Origin: Idiomarina baltica OS145
GTDB taxonomy: Bacteria; Pseudomonadota; Gammaproteobacteria; Enterobacterales; Alteromonadaceae
Assembly (NCBI RefSeq): GCF_000152885.1
Contig: NZ_CH672405.1
Span: forward strand, 76,472 to 140,471
Reading direction: 5' to 3'
Length of the DNA stretch: 64,000 nt
The position numbers and the translations under genes are program-made. Positions 4,611-37,056 of this stretch are shown piece after piece (position 1 is the first letter of the stretch; every line of letters begins with the position of its first letter). The notes below the pieces were generated by a model. That model searched no databases. It was not told where the DNA came from and saw nothing but the letters and a program-made list of their open reading frames with translations.

Positions 4611-7586
4611 ATGGATAGAACAATGAAAAAACCAATGACGTTTAGCATAAGTCCTGTTGCGACGGCAGTGTCACTCGTACTGACCGCGGGTCTGGCGTTT
4701 CCTGTATATGCGCAAGATCAAGGACAAGATAACGAAGAAAAAGCCAAAGAAGAATCCATTGAAGTCATTAATGTCAGTGGTATTCGCGGTAGCTTAGCAC
4801 GCTCAACTGACTTTAAACGCCAGTCAAGCGGTGTTGTCGACGCAATTTCTGCTGAGGAAATGGGTAAATTCCCAGATACCAACTTGGCAGAATCACTGCA
4901 GCGTATTACCGGTGTCTCGGTGAGTCGAAATGATGGCGAAGGTAGCCAAATAACCGTACGTGGTTTTGGCCCAGAGTTTAACTTGATCACCCTCAATGGC
5001 CGGCAAATGCCAGGTACTGGCTTTAGTCGTTCTTACAATATGGAAGCCCTTTCGTCTGAGGGAGTTACAGCACTTGAAGTGTATAAAACTGCACGGGCTG
5101 ATACACCCAGTGGTGGTTTAGGAGCAACGGTAAATATTGTTACTACTCGCCCATTCCAGCACTCAGGACAAAAGTTCGTAATCATGGGCAAAGCCCTGCA
5201 CGATAGCTCAGTCGAAAAAGGCGATAGCGTGACGCCAGAACTGGCTGCGGTGTACAGTAATACGTTTGCCGATGATACGTTCGGTATCGCTTTCTCGGTT
5301 TCCCAGCAACGCCGTGACTTCCGCCAACAGTACGCCAATATACAAGGTTGGCAGGCGAATGTCGGTTTACCTGACCTTGACGAAGGGGACTATGTTGATC
5401 CTCGCCCCATCGGCGAGGATGGTGAGCGTATCGGCAACCACTTCTTTCCTAAAGATATGAACTATGGCTTTACCGACGTTCAAAACGAACGTACTAACGG
5501 TCAAGTGACGCTACAGTTTGCACCGACCGATACCATGGTACTGACTGCCGACTACACCGGTTCACGCCGAACGTCGGGTCGCGTCGGCTTTGGCTGGGGT
5601 ATTTGGAACGAATTTGGTGGTAACATCAATTCCTATATCTTAGATGAGAACGGTACAGCGGTTTATGCCGATATCGCAGGTAATGATGCCTCATTTACCG
5701 CAAACTGGGATACCACTGAAATCGAGGCGGACTCCGTCGGTTTAAACCTGACATGGGACATCACGCCCGACTTTAGACTTTGGGTCGATGCCCATGACTC
5801 AAGCAACAGCATCGACAACGGTGCCGATCCCGGTCTCGGTTCAAATGGTCAAATCATTATGGGTTCTGACCAGTTGCAAACCAAATTCTACGACTATCGC
5901 AACGGCGAAATTCCGCAAGCGAGCGTACTTTGGAACAATGGGACTTCGGTGCTAGCACCCAACGAAATTGGCTCTAACTTTGGTCAATTCATCCACTCTC
6001 CAGGCGAATCCAACGTAAAACAGTATCAGATTGAAGGTACTTGGTATAATTCGGTGTTGGATATTCCTCTGGTCTCTGTGAAAGCGGGTATTTCACGCAC
6101 CGATCAAGATATGAGCGGTTACGAAGCTTGGAGTGGTTTACGCGGTGGGCCCGGATTCAGTCCTAGTTTCGCCGAAATATTCCCAGACGGTATGTTCGAA
6201 TACCATGACACCAGTGGTTTCCTAGACGAATTTGAAGGTGGCGGTTCTGACCTCGCACAAAACTATTATTACACCTACGATTACAACGAAGCGCTTGCGC
6301 GTCATGTGGCTTATCTAACCGAAGATCTCATGGGTGCTGATGAGTTTGTAGCCGATGCCTACTATGACGGTATTGATAGCCAAAGCTACGTGCGTGAGAA
6401 AACAGATGCCATCTTCTTGCAAACATCATGGGAATTCTCGCTCGGTGCGTTTCCAACCGAGCTCAATGTCGGCGTTCGTTATGAAACAACGGATGTTACC
6501 AGTACAGTGCGTCAACGAGTTGAACAGCAAGTCAACTGGGTCAGTGCTTCAGAGTGGATCATGCAGTATGAAGAAGGTGATGCGACTTTCTTGACGCAAA
6601 CCGGTGAACACGACGTGTTCTTGCCGATGCTCGATTTGAAGGTCAACTTTACTGATCAATTGATTGGTCGCTTCTCAACAGGCAAAACCATCTCTCGTGC
6701 ACCATTAGGCGCATTAGCCGGTGGTCGCAGTTTATCAGCAAGTCCAAAACCGGGTGCTCGCACAGGTAGCTCAGGTAACCCTAACCTGTTGCCATTTGAG
6801 TCAACCAACCTCGACTTAGCCATTGAATATTATTATGGCGAAGGTAGCTATGCATCGGTTGGTTACTTTAAGAAGGATGTTGATAACTTTGTTCAAACCA
6901 CCATCACCGAAACGACGGTAGAAGGTTTGCGTGACATCTTTGAAGGGCCTCGCTATCAGCAAGCTGTCGCTGATGTTGAAGCGCGCGGTGAGCAAGCCAC
7001 CAGCACGGCGATTTTTGAGCAAATGATAGCCAATGGTTACGGTAATGCGGATGGTGCTATTGAGCCAAATGCAGATGACCCTTTAATTGTTTGGAGCATC
7101 AGTCGCCCAAGCAACACCGATAGTAAGAGCGTCGACGGTTTCGAAATTGCGGCGCAACACCTCTTTGGACGTTCCGGATTTGGTTTAGCTGCTAACGCAA
7201 CGTTCGTCGATGGCGATGTTCGTTTTGACGTAACCAGCCTTGAGCAGCAAGCACCGCTTACAGGCTTAAGTGACTCAGCTAACTTCCAAGCATTCTACGA
7301 GAAAGATGGTTGGTCTATCCGCGCTACATACGCGTGGCGTGATAGCTACCTGATTGGTGTTGGTCAGGCACAGGGCTCTTCTGATGCGCCACCACAGTTC
7401 GCTAAGTCTTATGGACAGTGGGACTTAAGTGTTAACTATGACGTGACTGAAAAGCTAACGGTATTCTTTGAAGGTATTAACCTCAACAACGAAACCGAAG
7501 AAGGTTACGGACGCTACGAAGAGCAGTTCCTGTTCGCACGTCAATACGGTCCACGTTACGCAGTCGGTGCACGTTACACCTTCTAA
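4611..7586 (+). CDS. TonB-dependent outer-membrane receptor (oligosaccharide uptake)
   Basis: Energy-coupled outer-membrane porin, expected here to import beta-glucan oligosaccharides released by the GH16 enzyme. The 991-residue protein has a signal peptide ending at VYAQ, then a TonB-box-like IEVINVSGIRGS. The plug domain follows, with TNLAESLQRITGVS and TVRGFG. A long beta-barrel ends in the aromatic-terminated strand GARYTF, the signal for BAM insertion. The layout fits the Caulobacter-type TonB receptor subfamily common in marine polysaccharide loci. Two starts are possible: the ATG at 4611 or the ATG at 4623 (MKKPMTF); neither has a strong ribosome site, and the second gives the more normal signal peptide. 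It follows GH16 by 18 bp and ends before a strong bidirectional terminator. Ligand identity is inferred from context only. Confidence 0.93.
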   Translation: MDRTMKKPMTFSISPVATAVSLVLTAGLAFPVYAQDQGQDNEEKAKEESIEVINVSGIRGSLARSTDFKRQSSGVVDAISAEEMGKFPDTNLAESLQRITGVSVSRNDGEGSQITVRGFGPEFNLITLNGRQMPGTGFSRSYNMEALSSEGVTALEVYKTARADTPSGGLGATVNIVTTRPFQHSGQKFVIMGKALHDSSVEKGDSVTPELAAVYSNTFADDTFGIAFSVSQQRRDFRQQYANIQGWQANVGLPDLDEGDYVDPRPIGEDGERIGNHFFPKDMNYGFTDVQNERTNGQVTLQFAPTDTMVLTADYTGSRRTSGRVGFGWGIWNEFGGNINSYILDENGTAVYADIAGNDASFTANWDTTEIEADSVGLNLTWDITPDFRLWVDAHDSSNSIDNGADPGLGSNGQIIMGSDQLQTKFYDYRNGEIPQASVLWNNGTSVLAPNEIGSNFGQFIHSPGESNVKQYQIEGTWYNSVLDIPLVSVKAGISRTDQDMSGYEAWSGLRGGPGFSPSFAEIFPDGMFEYHDTSGFLDEFEGGGSDLAQNYYYTYDYNEALARHVAYLTEDLMGADEFVADAYYDGIDSQSYVREKTDAIFLQTSWEFSLGAFPTELNVGVRYETTDVTSTVRQRVEQQVNWVSASEWIMQYEEGDATFLTQTGEHDVFLPMLDLKVNFTDQLIGRFSTGKTISRAPLGALAGGRSLSASPKPGARTGSSGNPNLLPFESTNLDLAIEYYYGEGSYASVGYFKKDVDNFVQTTITETTVEGLRDIFEGPRYQQAVADVEARGEQATSTAIFEQMIANGYGNADGAIEPNADDPLIVWSISRPSNTDSKSVDGFEIAAQHLFGRSGFGLAANATFVDGDVRFDVTSLEQQAPLTGLSDSANFQAFYEKDGWSIRATYAWRDSYLIGVGQAQGSSDAPPQFAKSYGQWDLSVNYDVTEKLTVFFEGINLNNETEEGYGRYEEQFLFARQYGPRYAVGARYTF

Positions 7587-26815: not shown

Positions 26816-27550
26816 ATGTTTTATTTAAAGCCGCGTGAGGTGATTAATTCGGATGCTGAGCGTGATTGGTCAATGGACTTCTCGACATGGGCTGCCCATG
26901 TCAGCACCCCGATGTTTAAACACTATTTTGAACAGGGCATGGTTAACAAAGAGACTTTGATTAAAGACGCTCCGATGGTCGCCGTTGATTTCGAGACCAC
27001 AGGCTTAGATTGTCAACGTAATAGCATCGTCAGTATTGCTGTCGTACCTATGTCCGCTCAACGGATCTTTATGTCGCAAGCGCGGCAATGGGTGGTCAAA
27101 CCGCGACAAGACTTAACGGACGAATCTGTCGTTATTCACGGTATTACTCACTCTGATATTCAATCCGCTCCTGATATCGAGGCTATTTTGCCTGAGCTAT
27201 TGGATTTAGTCGCGGGCAAGATTTGGGTCGTTCATTACAACGGAATCGAGCGCCCTTTCCTACAAAAAGCAATGGATGCGCGTTTCAATGAACATATCCA
27301 TTTTCCTGTCATCGATACCATGGCCATTGAAGCACGCTTTCACCGTCAACGTCGTTCGTTTTGGTCAAGGTTAATGGGTAAGCGTCCCCTATCTATTCGT
27401 CTTGCCGATAGTCGCGAGCGCTATAACTTGCCCTTTTACGCACCCCATGATGCGCTCACCGATGCGCTTGCATGTGCTGAGCTCTTACAAGCGCAAATCC
27501 GTCATCGCTACAGTCTGGATTCGCCGCTGCAAGATATTTGGTTGCCCTAG
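26816..27550 (+). CDS. DnaQ-fold 3'-5' exonuclease (DEDDh type)
   Basis: A 244-residue protein with a helical N-terminal extension of about 50 residues, then an exonuclease core. ExoI is VAVDFETTGLD (Asp58, Glu60). ExoII is VHYNGIERPFL, where the usual catalytic Asp aligns with Glu145. ExoIII is HDALTDA (His211, Asp216). The fold is that of the polymerase III epsilon subunit, but no clamp-binding tail is evident. It starts 6 bp after the cNMP/CBS/DUF294 gene, with the ribosome site GGAGG in that gene's last codons, so the two form an operon. It converges with the SMC operon, ending 12 bp before it. Substrate may be DNA, RNA or a nucleotide second messenger. Confidence 0.87.
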   Translation: MFYLKPREVINSDAERDWSMDFSTWAAHVSTPMFKHYFEQGMVNKETLIKDAPMVAVDFETTGLDCQRNSIVSIAVVPMSAQRIFMSQARQWVVKPRQDLTDESVVIHGITHSDIQSAPDIEAILPELLDLVAGKIWVVHYNGIERPFLQKAMDARFNEHIHFPVIDTMAIEARFHRQRRSFWSRLMGKRPLSIRLADSRERYNLPFYAPHDALTDALACAELLQAQIRHRYSLDSPLQDIWLP

Positions 27551-27562
27551 TGAAAGATATTG

Positions 27563-28822
27563 TTAGGCGACTCGTTTAGGTGGCTGCACAATTAAATCTT
27601 CAATAATATGCACCTCATTAGTTTTGCTTACGGCGCGTTCGCGCCTTTGCAGCGGCAATTCTACTTGCACACTTTTCGTTAGCGTTTGGTATTCACTGAG
27701 TACCTGAAATAACCAAATTTCTGGCTGCCAACGCAGTTCGTTGTTGACTAGATAGTCGAGTGCGGAATGAGGATACTGGCTTTGAGCTGCATCGATAAAA
27801 AACTCATCAACATCTTGCTTTAACTGTCGCTGTTCAGTTTCAAGTACCGCGTCGCTAAACTGCGCCATGGCTTTTGCTGACTCACTCGATGAAGTTTGTT
27901 CAGTACGTAAGTGACGCGTTTTATGTAGCGCCTCATGCAGCACGTCTAACGTTTGTTGTTGAGTACTCTCAATACGCACATCCGCGTGAGCACCCGCACG
28001 AATACCACGCGCTAGGTTAAACAACTCGGGGACTTCACTGCGTTCAGTATAATCACTGACCTTAAGCTCGGGATGTTGACGCAGAAACTGCGCCATATTA
28101 TTAACCAATAGACTACGCGACTGCTGTTCACGAAACCGGCTCATTAATTCAATCATTCGATGTTGAATCTCGAGCATACTTGCACGTTGTAAGCTTGTCC
28201 GGCGCTGTAGTTGCACAACCAGTAGTTGGCGTAGTTTTACATGACCATCGGCAAGCGCAATACACTCCTCGTAATCGACCATTGAAAGTCCGTCGAGTAA
28301 TCGCTCGATTTGGTTTTGTGCCCGCTGGTTTTCAGCCATTTTCTCATCCAAACTGGCGGCAAAGCCAAAATCGGTATTCAATCGATTCCATAAACTGTGA
28401 ATTGCTTCATCAAACTCAGAGACTAAGTCATAAACACGCTCTTCAATAATATGTAACTTTAACTCTGCTAGATACATATCACTGCGCTGGTGCGCCTTTC
28501 TGAACACATCGACCTGGTTGCGAATAGAGTCCAGCTTGTCCGCAACATCGGCTTGGATCGACCGTCGCCGTTCATCCACAACTAAATTAGCAATGAGTTG
28601 TGCAATAGGCGCTCGCAAACGATACCCTTGACCGTGCTCCGGCTGATAAATAATCCGTGCATTTAAGAGGTTACGCAGTATTCCTTCATTAACAGACAAA
28701 GCATCAAGCTCCCCCGTTTGATAGGCCTGCATCAAAATACCTGCATGTCGACCTATCAGGTTGAGTCGCTTTTCACCTTGCTCAAGCCGCTGGTCGGAAA
28801 CATTGAGTTGCTCATCAGTCAT
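27563..28822 (-). CDS. Kleisin-like MksF/JetA/MukF subunit of an SMC complex
   Basis: A 419-residue protein, last of a three-gene operon with an SMC-like ATPase and a MukE-like protein. The N-terminal 90 residues look like a winged helix (ILRNLLNARIIY...GYRLRAPIAQLIANL). Long helices follow through about residue 330, and a compact C-terminal part (NNELRWQPEIWLFQ) could be the second winged helix that caps the ATPase. This is the layout of MukF/MksF kleisins, which bridge the two ATPase heads. It starts directly after the stop of the MksE-like gene. The assignment rests on architecture and gene context; sequence identity to known MukF is not obvious by eye. Confidence 0.72.
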   Translation of the reverse strand: MTDEQLNVSDQRLEQGEKRLNLIGRHAGILMQAYQTGELDALSVNEGILRNLLNARIIYQPEHGQGYRLRAPIAQLIANLVVDERRRSIQADVADKLDSIRNQVDVFRKAHQRSDMYLAELKLHIIEERVYDLVSEFDEAIHSLWNRLNTDFGFAASLDEKMAENQRAQNQIERLLDGLSMVDYEECIALADGHVKLRQLLVVQLQRRTSLQRASMLEIQHRMIELMSRFREQQSRSLLVNNMAQFLRQHPELKVSDYTERSEVPELFNLARGIRAGAHADVRIESTQQQTLDVLHEALHKTRHLRTEQTSSSESAKAMAQFSDAVLETEQRQLKQDVDEFFIDAAQSQYPHSALDYLVNNELRWQPEIWLFQVLSEYQTLTKSVQVELPLQRRERAVSKTNEVHIIEDLIVQPPKRVA

Positions 28823-29443
28823 CTACAATAACGCCTCTTGCTCAGGTGTCTCCTCAACGGGAAGGTTTTCTTCGTCGCGAATAAAGCGGATTACGTCCAT
28901 CAAATAATCCACTTTTCCTGTCACAATAAAATACGGTCTGTCCGTGTGAGGCTGGATAAAATAACCATGCTCTACCAACCGCTTAGCAATTTGCTTTATT
29001 TGGGCATCGACAGTTTCGGCTTGCGAGTTAAAAAAGCGGTCACGTGCTAAATTTGCTAGGCGTTGTTTTAGACTGGGGTTGTCCTCACAGGCAACAACCC
29101 ACTCGGGAAGCTTAATCGTGTCGCCAGGCACCAATGTACTATCGTGGCCGAGCGCTTCTTGTGTCAGAGTGAGCCATTCGAGTAACGGCATCAGTGTAGC
29201 AAGGGTCTGAATAAACTGTTGACGTAAATGCTCACGACCCGATTTATCAAGCGTCTGATAGCTTAAGAAAAAAACGCTCCCGTCAGCCGCCTGGCTCACG
29301 GTGCGATTTAACGGACGCAAATAATCATTTATCTGATTTTGTAATGTCTCATCTTGTAACTGTCGATGATACTCTGGGAAACGTTGACTACAAATAAACT
29401 CGCCAGCCAGTAGCGTCTCGATAATGGGACCAAATGTCATCAT
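28823..29443 (-). CDS. KITE-like MksE/JetB/MukE subunit of an SMC complex
   Basis: A 206-residue, mostly helical protein between the kleisin-like and SMC-like genes. The N-terminal ETLLAGEFICSQRFPEYHRQL and the mid-protein DRPYFIVTGKVDYLMDVIRF resemble the paired winged-helix build of MukE/MksE, which binds the kleisin and DNA. The start overlaps the stop of the SMC-like gene by 4 bp (ATGA), and the stop abuts the next start, so the three are translated as a coupled set. Size matches MksE (about 200 residues). Weakly conserved by nature; identified by position and size as much as by motif. Confidence 0.7.
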   Translation of the reverse strand: MMTFGPIIETLLAGEFICSQRFPEYHRQLQDETLQNQINDYLRPLNRTVSQAADGSVFFLSYQTLDKSGREHLRQQFIQTLATLMPLLEWLTLTQEALGHDSTLVPGDTIKLPEWVVACEDNPSLKQRLANLARDRFFNSQAETVDAQIKQIAKRLVEHGYFIQPHTDRPYFIVTGKVDYLMDVIRFIRDEENLPVEETPEQEALL

Positions 29444-32400
29444 ACGTGGTGCTCCTGTTGAACAAGGTGAGCCAGCTTCTCAGATAATCCAGAAACCTTT
29501 GGTTGAATGCGTTTCAACTGTCCTTTTCCCACCTTGTCTGGATGTGCCTCAATTAAGTAACGATGCTTAAATAGCATCAAAACATCAGACTCAGGATTAG
29601 GAAAGGCGCCTACAATTTGAATGTGATTGCTATCACACGCATCAAAAAGTTTCTCGACGTTGTGATAGGCCAACGTACCGATTTCGTCAATCGGCCAATG
29701 GAGCGTTATCGCCTCGCTATCCGTGCGTAACAAACGTGTGAAGGCTAATAAGAATTTACACAAGATCAGATAAGCCATTCCATGGCTCGACGATTCAGCG
29801 AGTTGGCGATCATTCCGAATCACAAGCTCATTGCCTGCTTCGGTTAAGAACAACTCAATCTTCAATAATGATTCGATACTGTATTTTTGATCGGCTCGCA
29901 AAATATCGGCGACCATTCCCAACTGCATCAAGTAGTCTTCGTTTGGAAGTCTATCGCCGGACTGCTGCCATTGCTCATAACTTGCTACAAACTGTGTGAG
30001 CGGTTCCCAAAATCCCAACGCATCGATAGTTGAGCTGATTTTAACTTCGGCGCGGTCGATGCCTGATAAAGACAGCTCATCGCCTACGGCATCAGTTAAA
30101 CGCCGGCTGTACTGAGCCACACGCTTATGGATATCATTAAAGACAGTAAAGAAGTCTACTAAATCTTTACTAATATTGTGACCGGTCGCCAATATTGCCT
30201 GTTGGTGCTCTTCGAGATAGTCCAACATCACTTGGAAGAGTGCCAATTTCGATGCAATGTCTTCTCCCACATTCATGCGTTGTCGGCTTTCTTCCATGAA
30301 GTTAAGAAAGTCTACTTGCGCATCACGACGTAGTTGATTATCGAACTGACGAAGCTCCTCACTAAGGACTCTATCGCTATGCATGAAACGTTCGTACACA
30401 TCATCGCATCGACCTAAAAGTTCGCTACTGTCTCTTTCCTTTAAGGCGCTTGCCTGTTGTCTTTGCTGCAACTCAGGCGTAAGTCCTGGCAAGTGATCGA
30501 GTTTACTGAGGCTGTCTCGTAATCGCTGTAACAACGCACTTATCTGTTCCAGTTTCAACTGAGTCTGCTGACGCAACTCGAGATCTTGCGATTTACTCTG
30601 TTCAAACACATTTTTAGCTAAACGTTTTTGATCTTCTCGCGTTAAAATCTCTGACTGCAACCGTCTTTCTTGCGCTTGCCATTGCGGACGTGCTGACTGC
30701 CAAACGGACTGTTTAAAATATCGATACTCGCGCACGCGCTCTTTCCATTGAGTCGCTTGATGTATCGCGTCATTTAACTGTTCTTCTCGTTGTTTTAACT
30801 GTTCAATATCCTGTTCATTGACACCTTGCTGAGCAAGTTTGTCGCTAAATGCTCGCTCCAATGCCTTAATATCGTCCTTAACCTGTGCACGTTCCTGTGC
30901 CTGCTGTTGACGTTCTAGCTCTTGCGACTCCTCAAGTTGTGCGATCACATCTTGCTGTTCAGCTTTCAACTCAATTTCTGCACTACGTTGCTGTTCGATT
31001 AACGCTTGCGTACTACTTTCAATGTGTTCATTAAGACTTTCTAGCCGCTCTTCATAAGCCTCTTGTTGTGCTCGAAGTTGTTGAGCTCGCTCCGAGACTT
31101 GTCGCTTTATATCCGCTTTTAATCGAGCTTGAGCATCAAGCGCATATTCGACTTCACGCTGTTGTTTTTGAAGCTGATGCTGCACCTGATGAACCTGAGC
31201 TTCAGCCTCGGATACACACTCGCTTTCGCGGCCTAGCTGCTGTTCAATTTCTTCGACCCGTTTAATCAGCGACTGTTGTTGGCTCTGTAGTTGCTCGAGT
31301 TCACGTCTGCCCTGCTCATTATCGTGTGGTGTCAACTCGATCGCCGTCAAATCAATCTGTAAACCATAAACACTGTCGTTGGCTTCTTCAAAAACAGGAT
31401 TCAGGTCGGTGCGCTCTAATAGTGACGGACAAATGACCTTACCAATCGTGTCATGCCACGTAGGTAAATGGCTATGCAGAAAGCCTCGAAGGCTATCAGG
31501 ATTGGGCTCAAGCTCGATCGCTTTTTGCTTAACGGTGATTTTTACTGAGGCTAACTGCTCACGCGTACGGTTTAATTCCTCACTGACACGTAGACGACTA
31601 CGCTGTGACTGGTTGAGCTGTTCACGCGCTTGTTCGAGTTGATCGCGTTGCAGGGTGAGATGCTCTTGCGCATCAACAACGCGCTCGGACAATGCATCTA
31701 ATTGCTGTTGCTCCTCTGCATTTGCGTGATGACTCTCCGAATTAAACGCGGCCAGTTTCAGCTTGACGGCTTCTCGCTCATCACGCCAACGGTCAGTTTG
31801 CTCGTTACGGTGGCGTTGATGTTGTTCACGGAACTCACTTAATGCCTCGCTGTGGCGTGCATGCAGCTCAGACAGTTCTTGCGCGAGTGCGTCGAGTTTA
31901 GCTTGATGCTTCACATCACGCCGTTGCTGCCGCTCCGTTAGTTTTAATTTCTCGCTATCGAGTTGTTGACGTTCAGCATGATGGGCCTCAAGCAAAACAA
32001 TGCGCTGCTGTTTAACTTCCTCCGCTTGTTCCTGTAGCTCGGGCAAACGATCAATTGTATGTTCCCACTCCTCAATATTAGCGTCACGAAATTCATCGGC
32101 CCTGTTCTGTGCTTCATCCAGTTGTCGCTCAACTTGTTTAAGCTCGGCCTTGTACTCGCTCAGTGTCTCATTGATTTGATCGCGTTGCTGCTCATAATCG
32201 GCGGTGCGTTGACTAATACGTTGTTCAATTGTCTTTAACGTTGCCTTTAAATCACGCTCTTGATCAGCTAACTGCTCTCTATGCTCAAGCAATAAAGGTT
32301 GAATAGCCCAAAGCTCTGCTAACTCATCGCCATAGCGATGAGCACCGCTTGAGAGTTTAGTGAAAGCGGCCTGTAGATCATCCAAGCGCATCGTTTGCCG

Positions 32401-33123
32401 CATTTGTTCAATCCATCTGCGGATCTTTTCACCACGAATCGAACTGTGGGGGACAGCGTGCCCGTCTTCTTCTAGAATCGCCGCTAACATGCTACGTAAA
32501 GTATCCATTTTGCCTTCTTTAGCATGCACAGCACTGACCAGTTTTTCGATATGACGTAATTTATGAGGCGCTTTCACCAATGCAAAGCGTGCCGCCAATT
32601 GACGCAGTTTTACGCTATCTTTTTGGGTATGTTGCAACGCTTGTACATCATTTTGAATCAGCGTACGAAACTCGCTTGTTGCACTGATTTTATGACTAAA
32701 AAGATGCCCTTTCGCGCGCAATCGCTTCAACCACTCCTGGTAGTCAACCGCAACCACTTTATCACCTTGCTCGTCGAGGTAGTCTTGTGGGCAATATTCA
32801 GCATCGATAAAACGGTAATCAACGCCATCGTTGCGTTTGGTCAACACCACTTGGACGTCGCGTTGCGCCGCAGACCGATATGAATAAATAATGTAGCTAT
32901 TACTGTACGGCAGATAGAACTTGTCAAAGTTGTCGCGGGTTTTAGGCACCACTTTATTGGGTTGCTCGCCATAAAACACGGGGATCATACGTTGTAACGT
33001 GGTTTTCCCCGACGCGTTACTACCACAAATATTGGTGTGCCCTTCTAAATCCAGTTCCACGATACCCGGGAGGTGACCGTTAATCATAATTATTTTTTTA
33101 AGACGAGCCGCATTACCTGCCAT
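29440..33123 (-). CDS. SMC-like ATPase, MksB/JetC/DUF3584-type, with long coiled coil
   Basis: A 1227-residue ATPase with an SMC plan. The Walker A motif GSNASGKT (residues 34-41) is at the N-terminus. About 300 to 850 residues are Gln/Glu/Arg-rich coiled coil with a break near the middle (around PTWHDTIGKVICPSL) that could be the hinge. The Walker B motif (WPIDE, Asp1146-Glu1147) is near the C-terminus, preceded by SSHGMAYLIL in the place of an ABC signature. It resembles the DUF3584/JetC/MksB group rather than MukB. The ATG at 33123 is chosen for GAGGA just upstream; the frame is open 99 bp further without support. First gene of the operon, order B-E-F. No MksG/JetD-type nuclease follows or precedes. 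Likely role: chromosome organisation or plasmid exclusion. Confidence 0.83.
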   Translation of the reverse strand: MAGNAARLKKIIMINGHLPGIVELDLEGHTNICGSNASGKTTLQRMIPVFYGEQPNKVVPKTRDNFDKFYLPYSNSYIIYSYRSAAQRDVQVVLTKRNDGVDYRFIDAEYCPQDYLDEQGDKVVAVDYQEWLKRLRAKGHLFSHKISATSEFRTLIQNDVQALQHTQKDSVKLRQLAARFALVKAPHKLRHIEKLVSAVHAKEGKMDTLRSMLAAILEEDGHAVPHSSIRGEKIRRWIEQMRQTMRLDDLQAAFTKLSSGAHRYGDELAELWAIQPLLLEHREQLADQERDLKATLKTIEQRISQRTADYEQQRDQINETLSEYKAELKQVERQLDEAQNRADEFRDANIEEWEHTIDRLPELQEQAEEVKQQRIVLLEAHHAERQQLDSEKLKLTERQQRRDVKHQAKLDALAQELSELHARHSEALSEFREQHQRHRNEQTDRWRDEREAVKLKLAAFNSESHHANAEEQQQLDALSERVVDAQEHLTLQRDQLEQAREQLNQSQRSRLRVSEELNRTREQLASVKITVKQKAIELEPNPDSLRGFLHSHLPTWHDTIGKVICPSLLERTDLNPVFEEANDSVYGLQIDLTAIELTPHDNEQGRRELEQLQSQQQSLIKRVEEIEQQLGRESECVSEAEAQVHQVQHQLQKQQREVEYALDAQARLKADIKRQVSERAQQLRAQQEAYEERLESLNEHIESSTQALIEQQRSAEIELKAEQQDVIAQLEESQELERQQQAQERAQVKDDIKALERAFSDKLAQQGVNEQDIEQLKQREEQLNDAIHQATQWKERVREYRYFKQSVWQSARPQWQAQERRLQSEILTREDQKRLAKNVFEQSKSQDLELRQQTQLKLEQISALLQRLRDSLSKLDHLPGLTPELQQRQQASALKERDSSELLGRCDDVYERFMHSDRVLSEELRQFDNQLRRDAQVDFLNFMEESRQRMNVGEDIASKLALFQVMLDYLEEHQQAILATGHNISKDLVDFFTVFNDIHKRVAQYSRRLTDAVGDELSLSGIDRAEVKISSTIDALGFWEPLTQFVASYEQWQQSGDRLPNEDYLMQLGMVADILRADQKYSIESLLKIELFLTEAGNELVIRNDRQLAESSSHGMAYLILCKFLLAFTRLLRTDSEAITLHWPIDEIGTLAYHNVEKLFDACDSNHIQIVGAFPNPESDVLMLFKHRYLIEAHPDKVGKGQLKRIQPKVSGLSEKLAHLVQQEHHV

Positions 33124-33173
33124 ATTGTTCCTCGTAACACCTTCACCAAAGCCGTTAATGATAGCATGCATTC

Positions 33174-33215
33174 TGCATCGTGAGCGATGCACTAACGGAC
33201 AATTTACATCCGTTA
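33174..33215. promoter_or_regulatory. Two adjacent inverted repeats upstream of the SMC operon
   Basis: One is TGCATCG-TGAG-CGATGCA (33174-33191), a 7-bp hairpin. The other is TAACGGA with a 9-bp spacer and TCCGTTA (33193-33215). Both lie 51-92 bp before the MksB-like start and could be a repressor site, or RNA structure in the leader. Confidence 0.4.
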
Positions 33216-33222
33216 AAACCAT

Positions 33223-33247
33223 AAAAAAAGCGCCCCAAAGGACGCTT
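33223..33247 (-). terminator. Intrinsic terminator of the prp operon
   Basis: Read on the minus strand: a 9-bp stem (AAAGCGTCC / GGGCGCTTT, one G-T pair), loop TTTG, then a T run. It follows prpF by about 30 bp. Confidence 0.75.
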
Positions 33248-33275
33248 TCAGCAATCGTTATGAATTAGCGGGTCA

Positions 33276-34457
33276 TTAATCCAACACCTCTGCAGGTACT
33301 CTCACCCAGCCTTCCATAAGCACACGTGCACTTCGACTCATAATGGCTTTGACAGCACGCCATTCACCATCTTTTAGGAGCGTTTCAGCACCGACTTGCA
33401 ACGTACCCGACGGATGACCAAAGTTGACCATCGTGCGCTCACCGCCACCGGCGGCTTGGTTTACTAATGTACCTGGAATAGAAGCGGCTGTGCCAATCGC
33501 CACCGCAGCCGTTCCCATCATCGCGTGATGTAGTTTACCCATCGACATAGCACGGACAAGCAAGTCAACATCACTGGCCTCAATCACTTTACCGCTCGAG
33601 GCGGTGTAGGTCTTACCGGGTGCTACAAAGGCTAATTTCGGCGTATGTTGACGTTGCACGGCTTCTTCTACCTTATCGATCAATCCCATGCGAACCGCGG
33701 CATGAGCCCGAATCGTTTCGAGTCGCGTCAAGGCTGCTGCGTCACCATTAATCGCTTCTTGCAACTCAGTTCCCTCATAGCCTAACGCCTCGGCACGCAG
33801 AAATACGGTAGGAATACCCGCATTGATAAAGGTAGCCTCTAAGGTTCCGACGCCAGGCACCTCAAATGTATCGACAAGATTTCCGGTGGGAAACATCTGC
33901 TCACCATCGGCGGAGGGATCCATAAACTCGATCGCCACTTCAGCCGCTGGAAACGTCACACCATCAAGCTCAAAGTCACCCATTTCTTGTACTTGTCCGT
34001 CTTGCATCGGTACCTTATTGACAATAGTTTTGCCAATGTTTGCCTGCCAAATACGGACTTCAGCGATACCGTTTTCCGGCACGCGATCGGCGTCAACGAG
34101 GCCTTGAGTTATTGCAAAAGCCCCCACCGCAGACGACAAATTACCGCAGTTACCGCTCCAGTCAACAAAGGGGGTATCAATCGATACCTGACCAAATAGA
34201 TAATCGACATCATGGTTGGGTTGCGTGCTTTTCGACACGATGACCGTTTTACTGGTGCTTGATGTCGCGCCGCCCATACCATCAGTATGCTTAGCGTAAG
34301 GATCGGGGCTGCCAATCACGCGCATCAGAAGTGCATCGCGCACGTTACCTGGCTGCTGCGCGGCCTCAGGTAAGTCCGCTAAGTTAAAGAATACACCTTT
34401 TGAAGTCCCGCCACGCATATAGGTGGCGGGAATTTTCAACTGTGGCCTAAATTTCAT
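33276..34457 (-). CDS. prpF: PrpF, 2-methylaconitate cis-trans isomerase
   Basis: Acts with AcnD in the 2-methylcitrate cycle: AcnD makes a 2-methylaconitate isomer that PrpF converts to the form further hydrated to 2-methylisocitrate. The protein is 393 residues with the N-terminal family mark ATYMRGGTSKGVFF and SGNCGNLSSAVGAFA around the active site. A diaminopimelate-epimerase-like two-lobed fold is typical. The start at 34457 is chosen because relatives begin with MKFxPQxKIPATYMRGG; the open frame upstream overlaps acnD. It begins 1 bp after the acnD stop, so they are coupled. It is the last gene before the operon terminator. Confidence 0.95.
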   Translation of the reverse strand: MKFRPQLKIPATYMRGGTSKGVFFNLADLPEAAQQPGNVRDALLMRVIGSPDPYAKHTDGMGGATSSTSKTVIVSKSTQPNHDVDYLFGQVSIDTPFVDWSGNCGNLSSAVGAFAITQGLVDADRVPENGIAEVRIWQANIGKTIVNKVPMQDGQVQEMGDFELDGVTFPAAEVAIEFMDPSADGEQMFPTGNLVDTFEVPGVGTLEATFINAGIPTVFLRAEALGYEGTELQEAINGDAAALTRLETIRAHAAVRMGLIDKVEEAVQRQHTPKLAFVAPGKTYTASSGKVIEASDVDLLVRAMSMGKLHHAMMGTAAVAIGTAASIPGTLVNQAAGGGERTMVNFGHPSGTLQVGAETLLKDGEWRAVKAIMSRSARVLMEGWVRVPAEVLD

Positions 34458-34458
34458 A

Positions 34459-37056
34459 TCAACTTGCCTCAGCCTCAAGAAAGTCTTGTGCAAACCGTTG
34501 AAGCACACCACCCGCCGAATAAATGGATACTTCTTCTTTGGTATCCAAGCGGCAGATCACGGGCACTTCAATATCTTCACCATTGGCTCGGTGAATCATT
34601 AAACTCAGTCGCGCACCAGGAGCCGGTTCGCCCTTAACATCATAGGTTTCAGAACCATCAAGTGCTAACGTCTTGCGGGTTGTGCCCTCTTCAAACTGCA
34701 GTGGCAAAACGCCCATACCAATTAAGTTGGTACGGTGAATACGCTCGAAACCTTCTGCTACGATAGCTTCAACCCCAGCTAAGCGGACACCTTTAGCGGC
34801 CCAGTCGCGCGATGAACCTTGACCATAGTCAGCACCTGCCACGATGATCAATGGTTGCTTTTGAGTCATATAGTGCTCAATCGCTTCCCACATGCGTACG
34901 GTTTTACCCTCAGGTTCAATCCGTGCCAACGAACCTTGAATCACATTGCCAGCATCATCCCGCACCATTTCGTTAAACAATTTCGGGTTGGCAAACGTTG
35001 CACGTTGAGCCGTTAAATGATCGCCACGGTGGGTCGCATAAGAGTTAAAGTCTTCTTCTGGCAAGCCCATTTTAGCGAGGTATTCACCGGCTGCACTGTC
35101 AGCAAGAATCGCATTCGAAGGTGACAAATGATCCGTAGTAATGTTGTCGCCAAGTACCGCTAAAGGACGCATCCCTGTTAAGCTTGGCTTAGCGGCCAAC
35201 GCACCTTCCCAGTACGGGGGCCGACGGATGTAGGTCGACATTTCACGCCAATCATAGAGTGGGTTAATATCGTCACCGTAATCGACCGAAAGATTAAACA
35301 TCGGATCGTACACTTTCCGGAACTGCTCAGGCTTAACGCTCGATTTAACGATAGCGTCAATTTCCTCGTCACTTGGCCAGATGTCTTTTAACGTGACTGC
35401 GTTGCCGTCAGTGTCATAGCCCAACACGTCTTTCTCGATATCAAAGCGCATAGTGCCCGCAATCGCATAAGCAACAACCAATGGCGGTGATGCTAAGAAC
35501 GCTTGTTTTGCATAAGGGTGAATCCGACCATCAAAGTTACGGTTACCCGATAGCACTGCTGTCGAGAACAAATCACGGTCGATAATTTCTTGTTGGATCT
35601 TAGGATCAAGTGCACCACTCATACCATTACAGGTAGTACATGCAAACGCCACGACACCAAAACCGAGTGTTTCCAGTTCTGGCAACAATTGCGCTTCTTC
35701 TAAGTACATCTTAACCGTCTTAGAGCCCGGTGCGAGTGAGCTTTTTACCCATGGCTTACGCGTTAAACCCAATTTATTGGCGTTACGCGCTATCAAGCCC
35801 GCCGCAATCATATTGCGCGGGTTACTGGTGTTTGTACAGCTCGTAATAGCTGCGATAATTACCGCGCCATCAGGCATTTTTCCATCTTCAGGTGACTCAA
35901 TATGTTTCGCCACTCCCCGCTCAGTCAACTCGCCAGCGGGCAACAATGAATGAGGGTTTGACGGCCCCGCTAGGTTACGTTTTACTTGGCTTAAATCAAA
36001 CGTTAGAACACGCTCATATTCTGCGGTTTCAAGACTATCGCCCCATAACCCAGTCTCTTTGGCGTATTGTTCCACCAACTCGACCTGATCGTCATCACGT
36101 CCAGTTAATTTAAGATAATCAATGGTCTGCTCATCAATGTAGAACATCGCTGCCGTGGCACCGTATTCTGGCGTCATATTAGAGATAGTCGCCCGATCGC
36201 CGACCGTCAGGGCTTTAGCACCTTCACCATAAAACTCGAGGTAAGCACCGACCACACGTTCTTTACGCAGGAACTGAGTCAATGCGAGTACCAAATCGGT
36301 GCTGGTGATGCCTGGCTGTAACTTACCAGTCAATTCAACGCCCACGATATCAGGCAAGCGTAGATAAGATGCACGGCCAAGCATTACACTCTCAGCCTCA
36401 AGACCGCCCACACCTACCGAGATAACACCCAAGGCATCAACCATCGGCGTGTGGCTGTCCGTGCCTACGCAGGTATCTACAAAGGCGACGTTGTCACGCA
36501 CTTGCACAACCGGTGACATCTTCTCCAAATTGATCTGGTGCATGATGCCGTTCCCCGGAGGGATAACATCCACGTTTTTAAACGCAGTTTTAGTCCAGTT
36601 AATAAAGTGAAAGCGATCATCATTGCGACGGTCTTCAATCGCACGGTTCTTCTCGAACGCGTCCTTTTCAAAGCCTGCATGCTCCACCGCGAGCGAGTGG
36701 TCAACAATCAACTGAGTGGGAACCACCGGGTTCACTTTTGCCGGATCACCCCCTTTCTCAGCGATAGCATCACGCAATCCCGCTAAGTCGACCAACGCGG
36801 TCTGACCTAAGATATCATGGCAAACGACACGGGCTGGAAACCACGGAAAATCATGCTCACGTTTGCGGTAAATTAATTGCTCAAGTGACTGTTTAAGAAG
36901 CTCGGGTTCACAGCGGCGCACCAAGTTCTCGGCAAAGACTCGGCTCGAGTAAGGTAGCTTGTCGTAGGCGCCCGCTTCAATATCTTCCACCGCTGCTCGA
37001 GCATCAAAGTACTCGAGCGTGGTGCCTTTTAACGATTTACGGTAATTCGAACTCAT
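34459..37056 (-). CDS. acnD: AcnD, Fe/S-dependent 2-methylcitrate dehydratase
   Basis: Aconitase-superfamily enzyme that dehydrates 2-methylcitrate in propionate oxidation. The 865-residue protein carries the [4Fe-4S] ligand cysteines in SCTNTSNPRN (near residue 405) and CTTCNGMSG (near 470). Other aconitase marks are GTDSHTPMVD and the C-terminal swivel domain with GADYGQGSSRDWA. The neighbourhood with prpF identifies it as AcnD and not AcnA. It sits 12 bp downstream of prpC and 1 bp before prpF. This AcnD/PrpF pair replaces PrpD, which is not present in the window. Confidence 0.95.
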   Translation of the reverse strand: MSSNYRKSLKGTTLEYFDARAAVEDIEAGAYDKLPYSSRVFAENLVRRCEPELLKQSLEQLIYRKREHDFPWFPARVVCHDILGQTALVDLAGLRDAIAEKGGDPAKVNPVVPTQLIVDHSLAVEHAGFEKDAFEKNRAIEDRRNDDRFHFINWTKTAFKNVDVIPPGNGIMHQINLEKMSPVVQVRDNVAFVDTCVGTDSHTPMVDALGVISVGVGGLEAESVMLGRASYLRLPDIVGVELTGKLQPGITSTDLVLALTQFLRKERVVGAYLEFYGEGAKALTVGDRATISNMTPEYGATAAMFYIDEQTIDYLKLTGRDDDQVELVEQYAKETGLWGDSLETAEYERVLTFDLSQVKRNLAGPSNPHSLLPAGELTERGVAKHIESPEDGKMPDGAVIIAAITSCTNTSNPRNMIAAGLIARNANKLGLTRKPWVKSSLAPGSKTVKMYLEEAQLLPELETLGFGVVAFACTTCNGMSGALDPKIQQEIIDRDLFSTAVLSGNRNFDGRIHPYAKQAFLASPPLVVAYAIAGTMRFDIEKDVLGYDTDGNAVTLKDIWPSDEEIDAIVKSSVKPEQFRKVYDPMFNLSVDYGDDINPLYDWREMSTYIRRPPYWEGALAAKPSLTGMRPLAVLGDNITTDHLSPSNAILADSAAGEYLAKMGLPEEDFNSYATHRGDHLTAQRATFANPKLFNEMVRDDAGNVIQGSLARIEPEGKTVRMWEAIEHYMTQKQPLIIVAGADYGQGSSRDWAAKGVRLAGVEAIVAEGFERIHRTNLIGMGVLPLQFEEGTTRKTLALDGSETYDVKGEPAPGARLSLMIHRANGEDIEVPVICRLDTKEEVSIYSAGGVLQRFAQDFLEAEAS

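Follow-up and report, generated by a model that had tools for sequence, protein, structure and literature searches.

The mksBEF operon of Idiomarina baltica

The window analysed here, a 64,000-nucleotide stretch of the Idiomarina baltica OS145 genome (contig NZ_CH672405.1, positions 76,472 to 140,471), is part of contig 8 in a draft assembly that totals 2.77 Mb and 15 contigs. On its minus strand it contains three genes, designated here mksB, mksE and mksF, which encode an SMC-KITE-kleisin set: an MksB-like ATPase, an MksE-like KITE subunit and a probable MukF/JetA-like kleisin. The original prediction, made before any database search, had described three coupled genes for products of 1227, 206 and 419 amino acids, and this was confirmed by the open reading frames and their junctions. 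The stop of mksB (29440..33123) overlaps the start of mksE (28823..29443), and the stop of mksE abuts the start of mksF (27563..28822). The operon end that had been proposed, 33215, fits neither of the candidate start codons of mksB, the ATG at 33123 and an in-frame ATG at 33222; the latter would give the longest open reading frame (1260 amino acids). We chose the ATG at 33123, which is supported by an upstream AGGA and by the alignment with relatives.

Profile searches with the three proteins, proposed at the outset as a check, placed MksB in the Pfam family DUF3584 (PF12128; positions 1-1190 of 1191, E=5e-199) and MksE in the family MksE (PF21980; 36.9 bits, cut-off 27). Assignment of the ATPase to a DUF3584/JetC group was therefore right as to DUF3584, which is matched over its full length, but the protein is not close to JetC: its best PADLOC JetC match has an E value of 4e-5 over about 40 residues. 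Against the SMC profile TIGR02168 it scores 16 bits, the cut-off being 567. MksB carries three motifs that we take to be the Walker A (GSNASGKT, residues 34-41, 33001..33024), an ABC signature-like motif (SSHG, residues 1112-1115, 29779..29790) and the Walker B with its catalytic glutamate (PIDE, residues 1144-1147, 29683..29694), all encoded on the minus strand. The translation of MksE lacks the IFDR motif, which in type I Wadjet is described as the N-terminal JetB element that contacts JetD (PMC10586767), and neither MksE nor MksF is matched by the PADLOC Jet models.

The mksF product gave no convincing match in the Pfam search. Its AlphaFold2 model (pLDDT 77, pTM 0.41) is helical in its N-terminal and middle parts, continues into a linker of low confidence (residues 257-284) and ends in a C-terminal helix-strand domain. 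When the model was compared with the PDB by Foldseek, the nine top matches were all JetABC, MukBEF, MukEF or MukF entries, with unrelated helical proteins ranking after them; these matches are weak (E 0.004-0.044, TM 0.11-0.27). A sequence-profile search of the PDB with MksF returned none below E=0.02. We regard MksF as a probable kleisin from its family, its conserved position in the operon and this weak fold comparison. The corresponding PDB search with MksB gave a single match, to a chimeric spike-protein mimic, and was discarded as coiled-coil noise.

Gene order and a fourth gene in the DUF3584 lineage

A search of 60 genomes found DUF3584 in 24, the window's own included. Among the 23 other loci one, on a short contig without a whole mksB (L057), was left out, and the remaining 22 all show the order B-E-F, with E assigned by position only in L046. 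The same order was found in a set of named loci, 80 of which were kept out of 390; five of these end too early, and all 75 that reach past F are B-E-F. The two sets overlap, some loci being the same records. B-E-F is thus the order of the DUF3584 lineage in every locus assessed. The order ATPase-KITE-kleisin, which had been singled out as a peculiarity of the operon, is real at this locus but is not special to it. For comparison, mksFEBG is given as the conserved order, Pseudomonas included, in PMC10123090.

The same survey, which the original prediction had suggested, also covered the nuclease. In seven of the 22 loci a gene for a protein of 274-308 amino acids, here called G, directly follows F, and among the named loci this is the case in 62 of 75. 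All seven proteins match the Pfam family DUF7281 (PF23947; E 3e-13 to 4e-58), and two of them also pass the cut-off of JetD_C (PF09983). A Glu-Asn pair and an Asp-x-Asp motif are invariant in the 36 members aligned; an invariant glutamate together with DxD is the TOPRIM pattern. The AlphaFold2 model of the Idiomarina aquatica G protein (pLDDT 94.7) has topoisomerase VI-A entries at the head of its PDB matches (E from 8e-5), and Corynebacterium glutamicum MksG (8b7f) ranks sixth (E=0.002), all at low TM values of 0.3-0.4. Sequence profiles of G found nothing in the PDB below E=0.02, Spo11 and MksG being listed at E 0.36 and 0.55. On the grounds of the invariant residues and the modelled fold we read DUF7281 as the counterpart of MksG/JetD and identify it, at the level of prediction, as a compact TopoVI-A/MksG/JetD-type TOPRIM protein. 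As such, G would cut DNA.

Ten of the 369 genomes in a sample of the class passed the DUF3584 cut-off, and nine of these had a whole B. The six outside the window's family (G134, G229, G250, G307, G360 and G422) all carry B-E-F-G, and the three inside it (the window's genome, G000, together with G019 and G405) all lack G. A lone 105-amino-acid N-terminal piece of DUF3584 in G276 (C31:5651-5905), with no E, F or G nearby, was not counted and is apparently the remnant of a system.

These data bear on the place of the operon among known types. It had been proposed to belong to a distinct lineage of SMC-KITE-kleisin complexes, and its membership in the DUF3584 group with the ATPase first agrees with this. 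The MksE profile match would also suit an ordinary mksFEB-type system whose genes had been shuffled; we consider this scarcely credible, since the ATPase comes first in every locus assessed, DUF3584 matches PADLOC JetC weakly, and the G proteins of relatives fit DUF7281 far better than JetD_C. The description of the operon as a core without its nuclease holds for the window and its clade, but the lineage itself usually has the nuclease-like DUF7281 protein as its fourth gene.

Absence of G from the window's clade

The original prediction noted that no TOPRIM gene of the MksG/JetD kind adjoins the operon. We found none in the operon, and none in the whole genome with three profiles: JetD_C, DUF7281 and A4, a profile from our own alignment of the G family. 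Because DUF7281 alone missed the fourth gene of G229, which A4 finds (E=9e-10), the search of the genus was repeated with A4; two of 19 genomes matched (G004 and G006), the window's not being among them. The 3 kb beyond mksF hold no convincing trace of a G remnant. As no JetD- or DUF7281-type gene was found in the genome, DNA cutting by the window's complex is unlikely.

The presence of G was followed on a tree built from 109 B proteins, of which 104 are different; of the 104 labelled rows, 75 have G and 29 lack it. Thirteen changes in G presence occur on this tree, and starred branches force 12 of them. A smaller IQ-TREE tree with 48 rows again gives 13 changes, 11 of them forced, and on it rows with and without G do not clearly cluster (67-83 of 500 shuffles are as low). 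The long outer rows of the B tree, among them all six mobile ones there, carry G. Furthermore, a nuclease-less Rheinheimera locus (L163) retains after F an 18-residue trace of the G C-terminus (78% identity, E=0.001; profile E=4e-6). Because the outer rows have G and the Rheinheimera locus keeps this trace, we read the changes mostly as losses, with re-gain or exchange of whole operons as possible alternatives. Seven loci gave higher-scoring matches to G; these fall within the end of F or span it, are due to over-long G reading frames and were not counted. A trace of G in L150, very weak at most (E=0.28), was likewise left uncounted.

The window's clade consists of six rows that represent four different proteins; none has G, whereas all eight rows of its sister group do. 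The closest named relatives of the window's MksB are those of Idiomarina sp. MD25a (84%) and I. fontislapidosi (82%). Two records named Halomonas litopenaei, L150 without G and L167 with G, could serve as a pair for a direct test. On the tree, their B proteins stand about 0.14 changes per column apart, so that the two may not belong to one species.

The dnaQ-prpF interval

Downstream of mksF lies a convergent gene for a DnaQ-fold exonuclease of the PRK09146 family (26816-27550, plus strand), 12 bases away, as had been predicted. Upstream of mksB is a minus-strand gene (33276-34511) that we take to be prpF; the prp names are likewise our reading of the sequences. A pattern scan found one terminator-like hairpin (33226..33249, minus strand; 0.5 expected) between prpF and mksB, with which mksBEF would be a unit separate from the prp genes. 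No promoter-like site was found in a scan of 32900-33400.

The nuclease-less operon stands between dnaQ and prpF in four of the 19 Idiomarina genomes. DUF3584 occurs anywhere in six, and G004 and G006 carry the four-gene form at other sites. An ortholog of dnaQ is present in 17 genomes; in the 13 that have it with no adjoining mks genes, dnaQ and prpF are still neighbours, with about 0.8-3.2 kb of other DNA between them. The dnaQ-prpF interval (27551-33275 of the window) is therefore a small variable site in Idiomarina.

It had been suggested that the DnaQ-fold neighbour might supply the missing nuclease. More generally, a nuclease encoded in trans, this one or another, could replace G, so that plasmids would still be restricted, and the 12-base spacing in the window's clade is consistent with such a role. 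We regard this explanation as distinctly unlikely: the genome has no match to JetD_C, DUF7281 or A4, the DnaQ-fold gene is convergent with the operon, and its wide occurrence and constant neighbours in genomes without adjoining mks genes argue against the association. The DnaQ-fold neighbour was accordingly rejected as a candidate nuclease.

Other SMC systems of the host

The window's genome encodes ScpA and, as two half matches, Smc, on a contig other than that of the window; MukB (PF04310) has no match in it. The smc gene is split in the region G000:C5:177000-192000 (L066), which contains two runs of N (5928-6185 and 9933-10674 of L066). The inverted piece between them holds the 3′ part of smc and two further genes, presumably ligA and zipA. 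A natural split of smc was rejected; since the runs of N flank the inverted piece, we read the two halves as a scaffolding error.

Across the 60 genomes, the window's own included, DUF3584 (24 genomes) and MukB (9 genomes) never occur together, a count that is uncorrected for kinship. One 3.1-Mb genome rated 100% complete (G045) contains a DUF3584 B-E-F-G set (C33, L046) but, by the profiles used, lacks both MukB and a full-length TIGR02168 Smc. This set might be the only SMC complex it has. A further genome (G037) likewise has neither by these profiles, and has two JetD_C matches.

Selection on the remaining subunits

We next consider whether the three genes are maintained. Between the window and its nearest relative (L054), the ratio of nonsynonymous to synonymous substitution rates (dN/dS) is 0.073 for mksB, 0.030 for mksE and 0.044 for mksF, and 0.020 and 0.014 for two neighbouring genes; the values come from computable pairs, in which synonymous sites are near or past saturation. 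In the nuclease-less Idiomarina clade mksB, mksE and mksF are kept intact under purifying selection and do not seem to be decaying. A decaying remnant, in which the nuclease was lost first and the other genes are now following it, would account for the patchy presence in the genus, for selection weaker than on the two neighbouring genes and for a faster-evolving kleisin (see below). It is nevertheless very improbable, as the open frames and the ATPase motifs are intact and dN/dS is 0.03-0.07, with the same reservation about saturation.

MksF evolves faster in the window's clade than in its nuclease-bearing sisters in 25 of 25 sister/outgroup combinations (chi2 5.9-28.3), which share sequences and are not independent. 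In the same combinations MksB exceeds 3.84 in three, all with sister L129, and MksE in none. Residues 155-223 of MksF, a region picked post hoc, contain nine of the 12 conserved columns changed in the window's clade, as against 27 of all 92 conserved columns (hypergeometric P 0.0006). L205, a divergent row that bears the nuclease, differs at 15 conserved columns of F, compared with the 12 of the window's clade. In C. glutamicum, the kleisin MksF is described as the subunit that binds MksG (PMC10123090), and release from docking would be a natural explanation for the faster kleisin of the window. Ten other nuclease-less trios were analysed in the same way: in six, no subunit differs nominally, and the other four differ in varying directions. 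A nominal excess in F was found in just two, L130 and L150, accompanied in L150 by one in B and in L130 by a difference in B of opposite direction. The trios do not support faster kleisin evolution as a general sequel to loss of the nuclease, eight of the ten being without it, and for this reason we treat the speed-up in the window's clade as a clue only.

Copies on plasmids and in a phage

MksB matches 39 plasmid records and one phage. We examined the phage and those 16 plasmid records whose coverage reaches 62% or more, that of the other 23 being lower. All 17 of these mobile loci are B-E-F-G. Since four Vibrio megaplasmids are close copies, as are two Acinetobacter plasmids, the plasmids represent fewer than 16 independent cases. 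The plasmid records (L221-L225 and L229-L239) range from 40 kb to 1.17 Mb, with hosts in Vibrio, Acinetobacter, Pseudomonas, Marinobacter, Rhodoferax, Azospira and Aromatoleum; in one Vibrio plasmid B and F are interrupted. Where annotation is given, it reads 'ATP-binding protein' plus hypothetical proteins, the fourth gene being once named DUF2399; the mobile match H13 is unannotated, and its genes were assigned by profile only. The Dolichospermum phage Dfl-JY45 (L220, 86907-93262 of the record) has a complete SMC-KITE-kleisin-TOPRIM set of four genes, all annotated as hypothetical. Two scans of viral contigs with few patterns gave no relative, a weak negative. It is plausible that a plasmid-borne set restricts rival plasmids.

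Proposed function

We judge it reasonably probable, largely by analogy, that a Wadjet-like complex for plasmid restriction has here shed its nuclease and has been kept as a non-cutting loop extruder, acting beside Smc-ScpAB as an accessory condensin on the host chromosome. The locus would code for a complex of SMC, KITE and kleisin that is driven by ATP and derives from a system of four genes in the order B-E-F-G. By inference from the Wadjet and MksBEFG systems that have been studied, the motor of its relatives would be loaded onto DNA and extrude loops; on recognising a small DNA circle it would activate the nuclease G. In the window's complex the kleisin would bridge two MksB heads, as in MukBEF and JetABC, MksE would bind the kleisin linker (residues 257-284, modelled with low confidence), and cycles of ATP would drive loop extrusion. 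Since no G was found in operon or genome and purifying selection maintains B, E and F, a non-cutting loop extruder is the most likely form of the complex. Its most probable use would be that of a second condensin beside Smc-ScpAB, as with the MksBEF of P. aeruginosa, which is reported to contribute to chromosome organisation and segregation and likely to have arisen by loss of JetD (PMC10586767, PMC7485682).

Several points weigh against this proposal. Selection on the three genes is weaker than on their two neighbours, and the other nuclease-less trios show no consistent change in subunit rates. The tree by itself cannot separate loss from gain of G. With the operon at its site in four of 19 genomes and DUF3584 in six, the genus can do without mksBEF, and so patchy a presence is more like that of an accessory or defence gene than of a core condensin. 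Finally, both loop extrusion and the host chromosome as its target are argued from analogy.

The main rival is non-cutting handling of foreign circles, in which the complex would still recognise small circular or foreign DNA and compact, silence or destabilise it without cleavage. The plasmid and phage relatives with their full four genes point to a background of defence or competition, the patchy distribution in the genus suits such a role, and human Smc5/6 is described as acting against viral DNA (PMC10586767). Nothing within the locus points to non-cutting defence, however, and in the C. glutamicum experiments described in PMC10123090 deletion of mksG raised the copy number of the plasmid pBHK18 to much the same effect as deletion of mksB or mksF, but left that of pJC1 without such a rise, which indicates that this relative needs its nuclease. 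We consider this rival rather unlikely.

Beyond the accessory condensin proposed for the window, a wider reading can be put forward tentatively, as one that may well prove wrong. DUF3584, MksE, kleisin and DUF7281 would constitute an undescribed and widespread Wadjet-like type of order B-E-F-G, present in bacterial genomes, on plasmids and in one phage or more, and not recognised by the Wadjet profiles that were tried. Its genomic copies would repeatedly lose the DUF7281 nuclease and be domesticated as condensins, the freed surface of the kleisin (about residues 155-223) would correspond to the docking site, and the window would be a clean example. The open-access library searched gave no description of a DUF3584/DUF7281 B-E-F-G type, the founding papers on MksBEF and on the Wadjet types lying outside its coverage. 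The derivation of chromosome-organising MksBEF and MukBEF from plasmid-cutting Wadjet systems has so far only been suggested; about a dozen inferred nuclease losses, several of them between close relatives, together with intact plasmid relatives, make it testable by paired comparison. The proposal also suggests a function for DUF7281 and would widen the known range of SMC-nuclease systems, and operons annotated as an 'ATP-binding protein' and three hypothetical proteins would become recognisable.

Comparison with known systems

The MksBEF of P. aeruginosa PAO1, to which the window's operon is compared by description, differs in its gene order, F-E-B. Like the window's operon, it codes for an SMC ATPase, an MksE-type KITE subunit and a kleisin, the last being a probable one in the window, and it is reported to organise the chromosome beside Smc and to have lost its nuclease (PMC10586767, PMC7485682); for other Pseudomonas systems the order mksFEBG is given (PMC10123090). 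C. glutamicum MksBEFG resembles the lineage through MksG (8b7f), the sixth-ranked fold match of the relatives' G. It is unlike it in the order F-E-B-G and in an MksG described as having DUF3322 and DUF2220 (PMC10123090), whereas the relatives have DUF7281 and the window has no G. MukBEF is of the same three-subunit kind, and MukF is among the weak fold matches of MksF, but PF04310 has no match in the window's genome, and MukB reading frames are of 1482-1549 amino acids, compared with 1227 for the window's MksB. The JetABCD systems, Wadjet types I-III, are unlike it in their order JetA-B-C-D (kleisin, KITE, SMC, nuclease) as against B-E-F-G, with no Jet profile matching E or F. They share with the window's relatives the same four kinds of component, together with weak profile matches to JetC and JetD and weak fold matches of MksF to JetABC.

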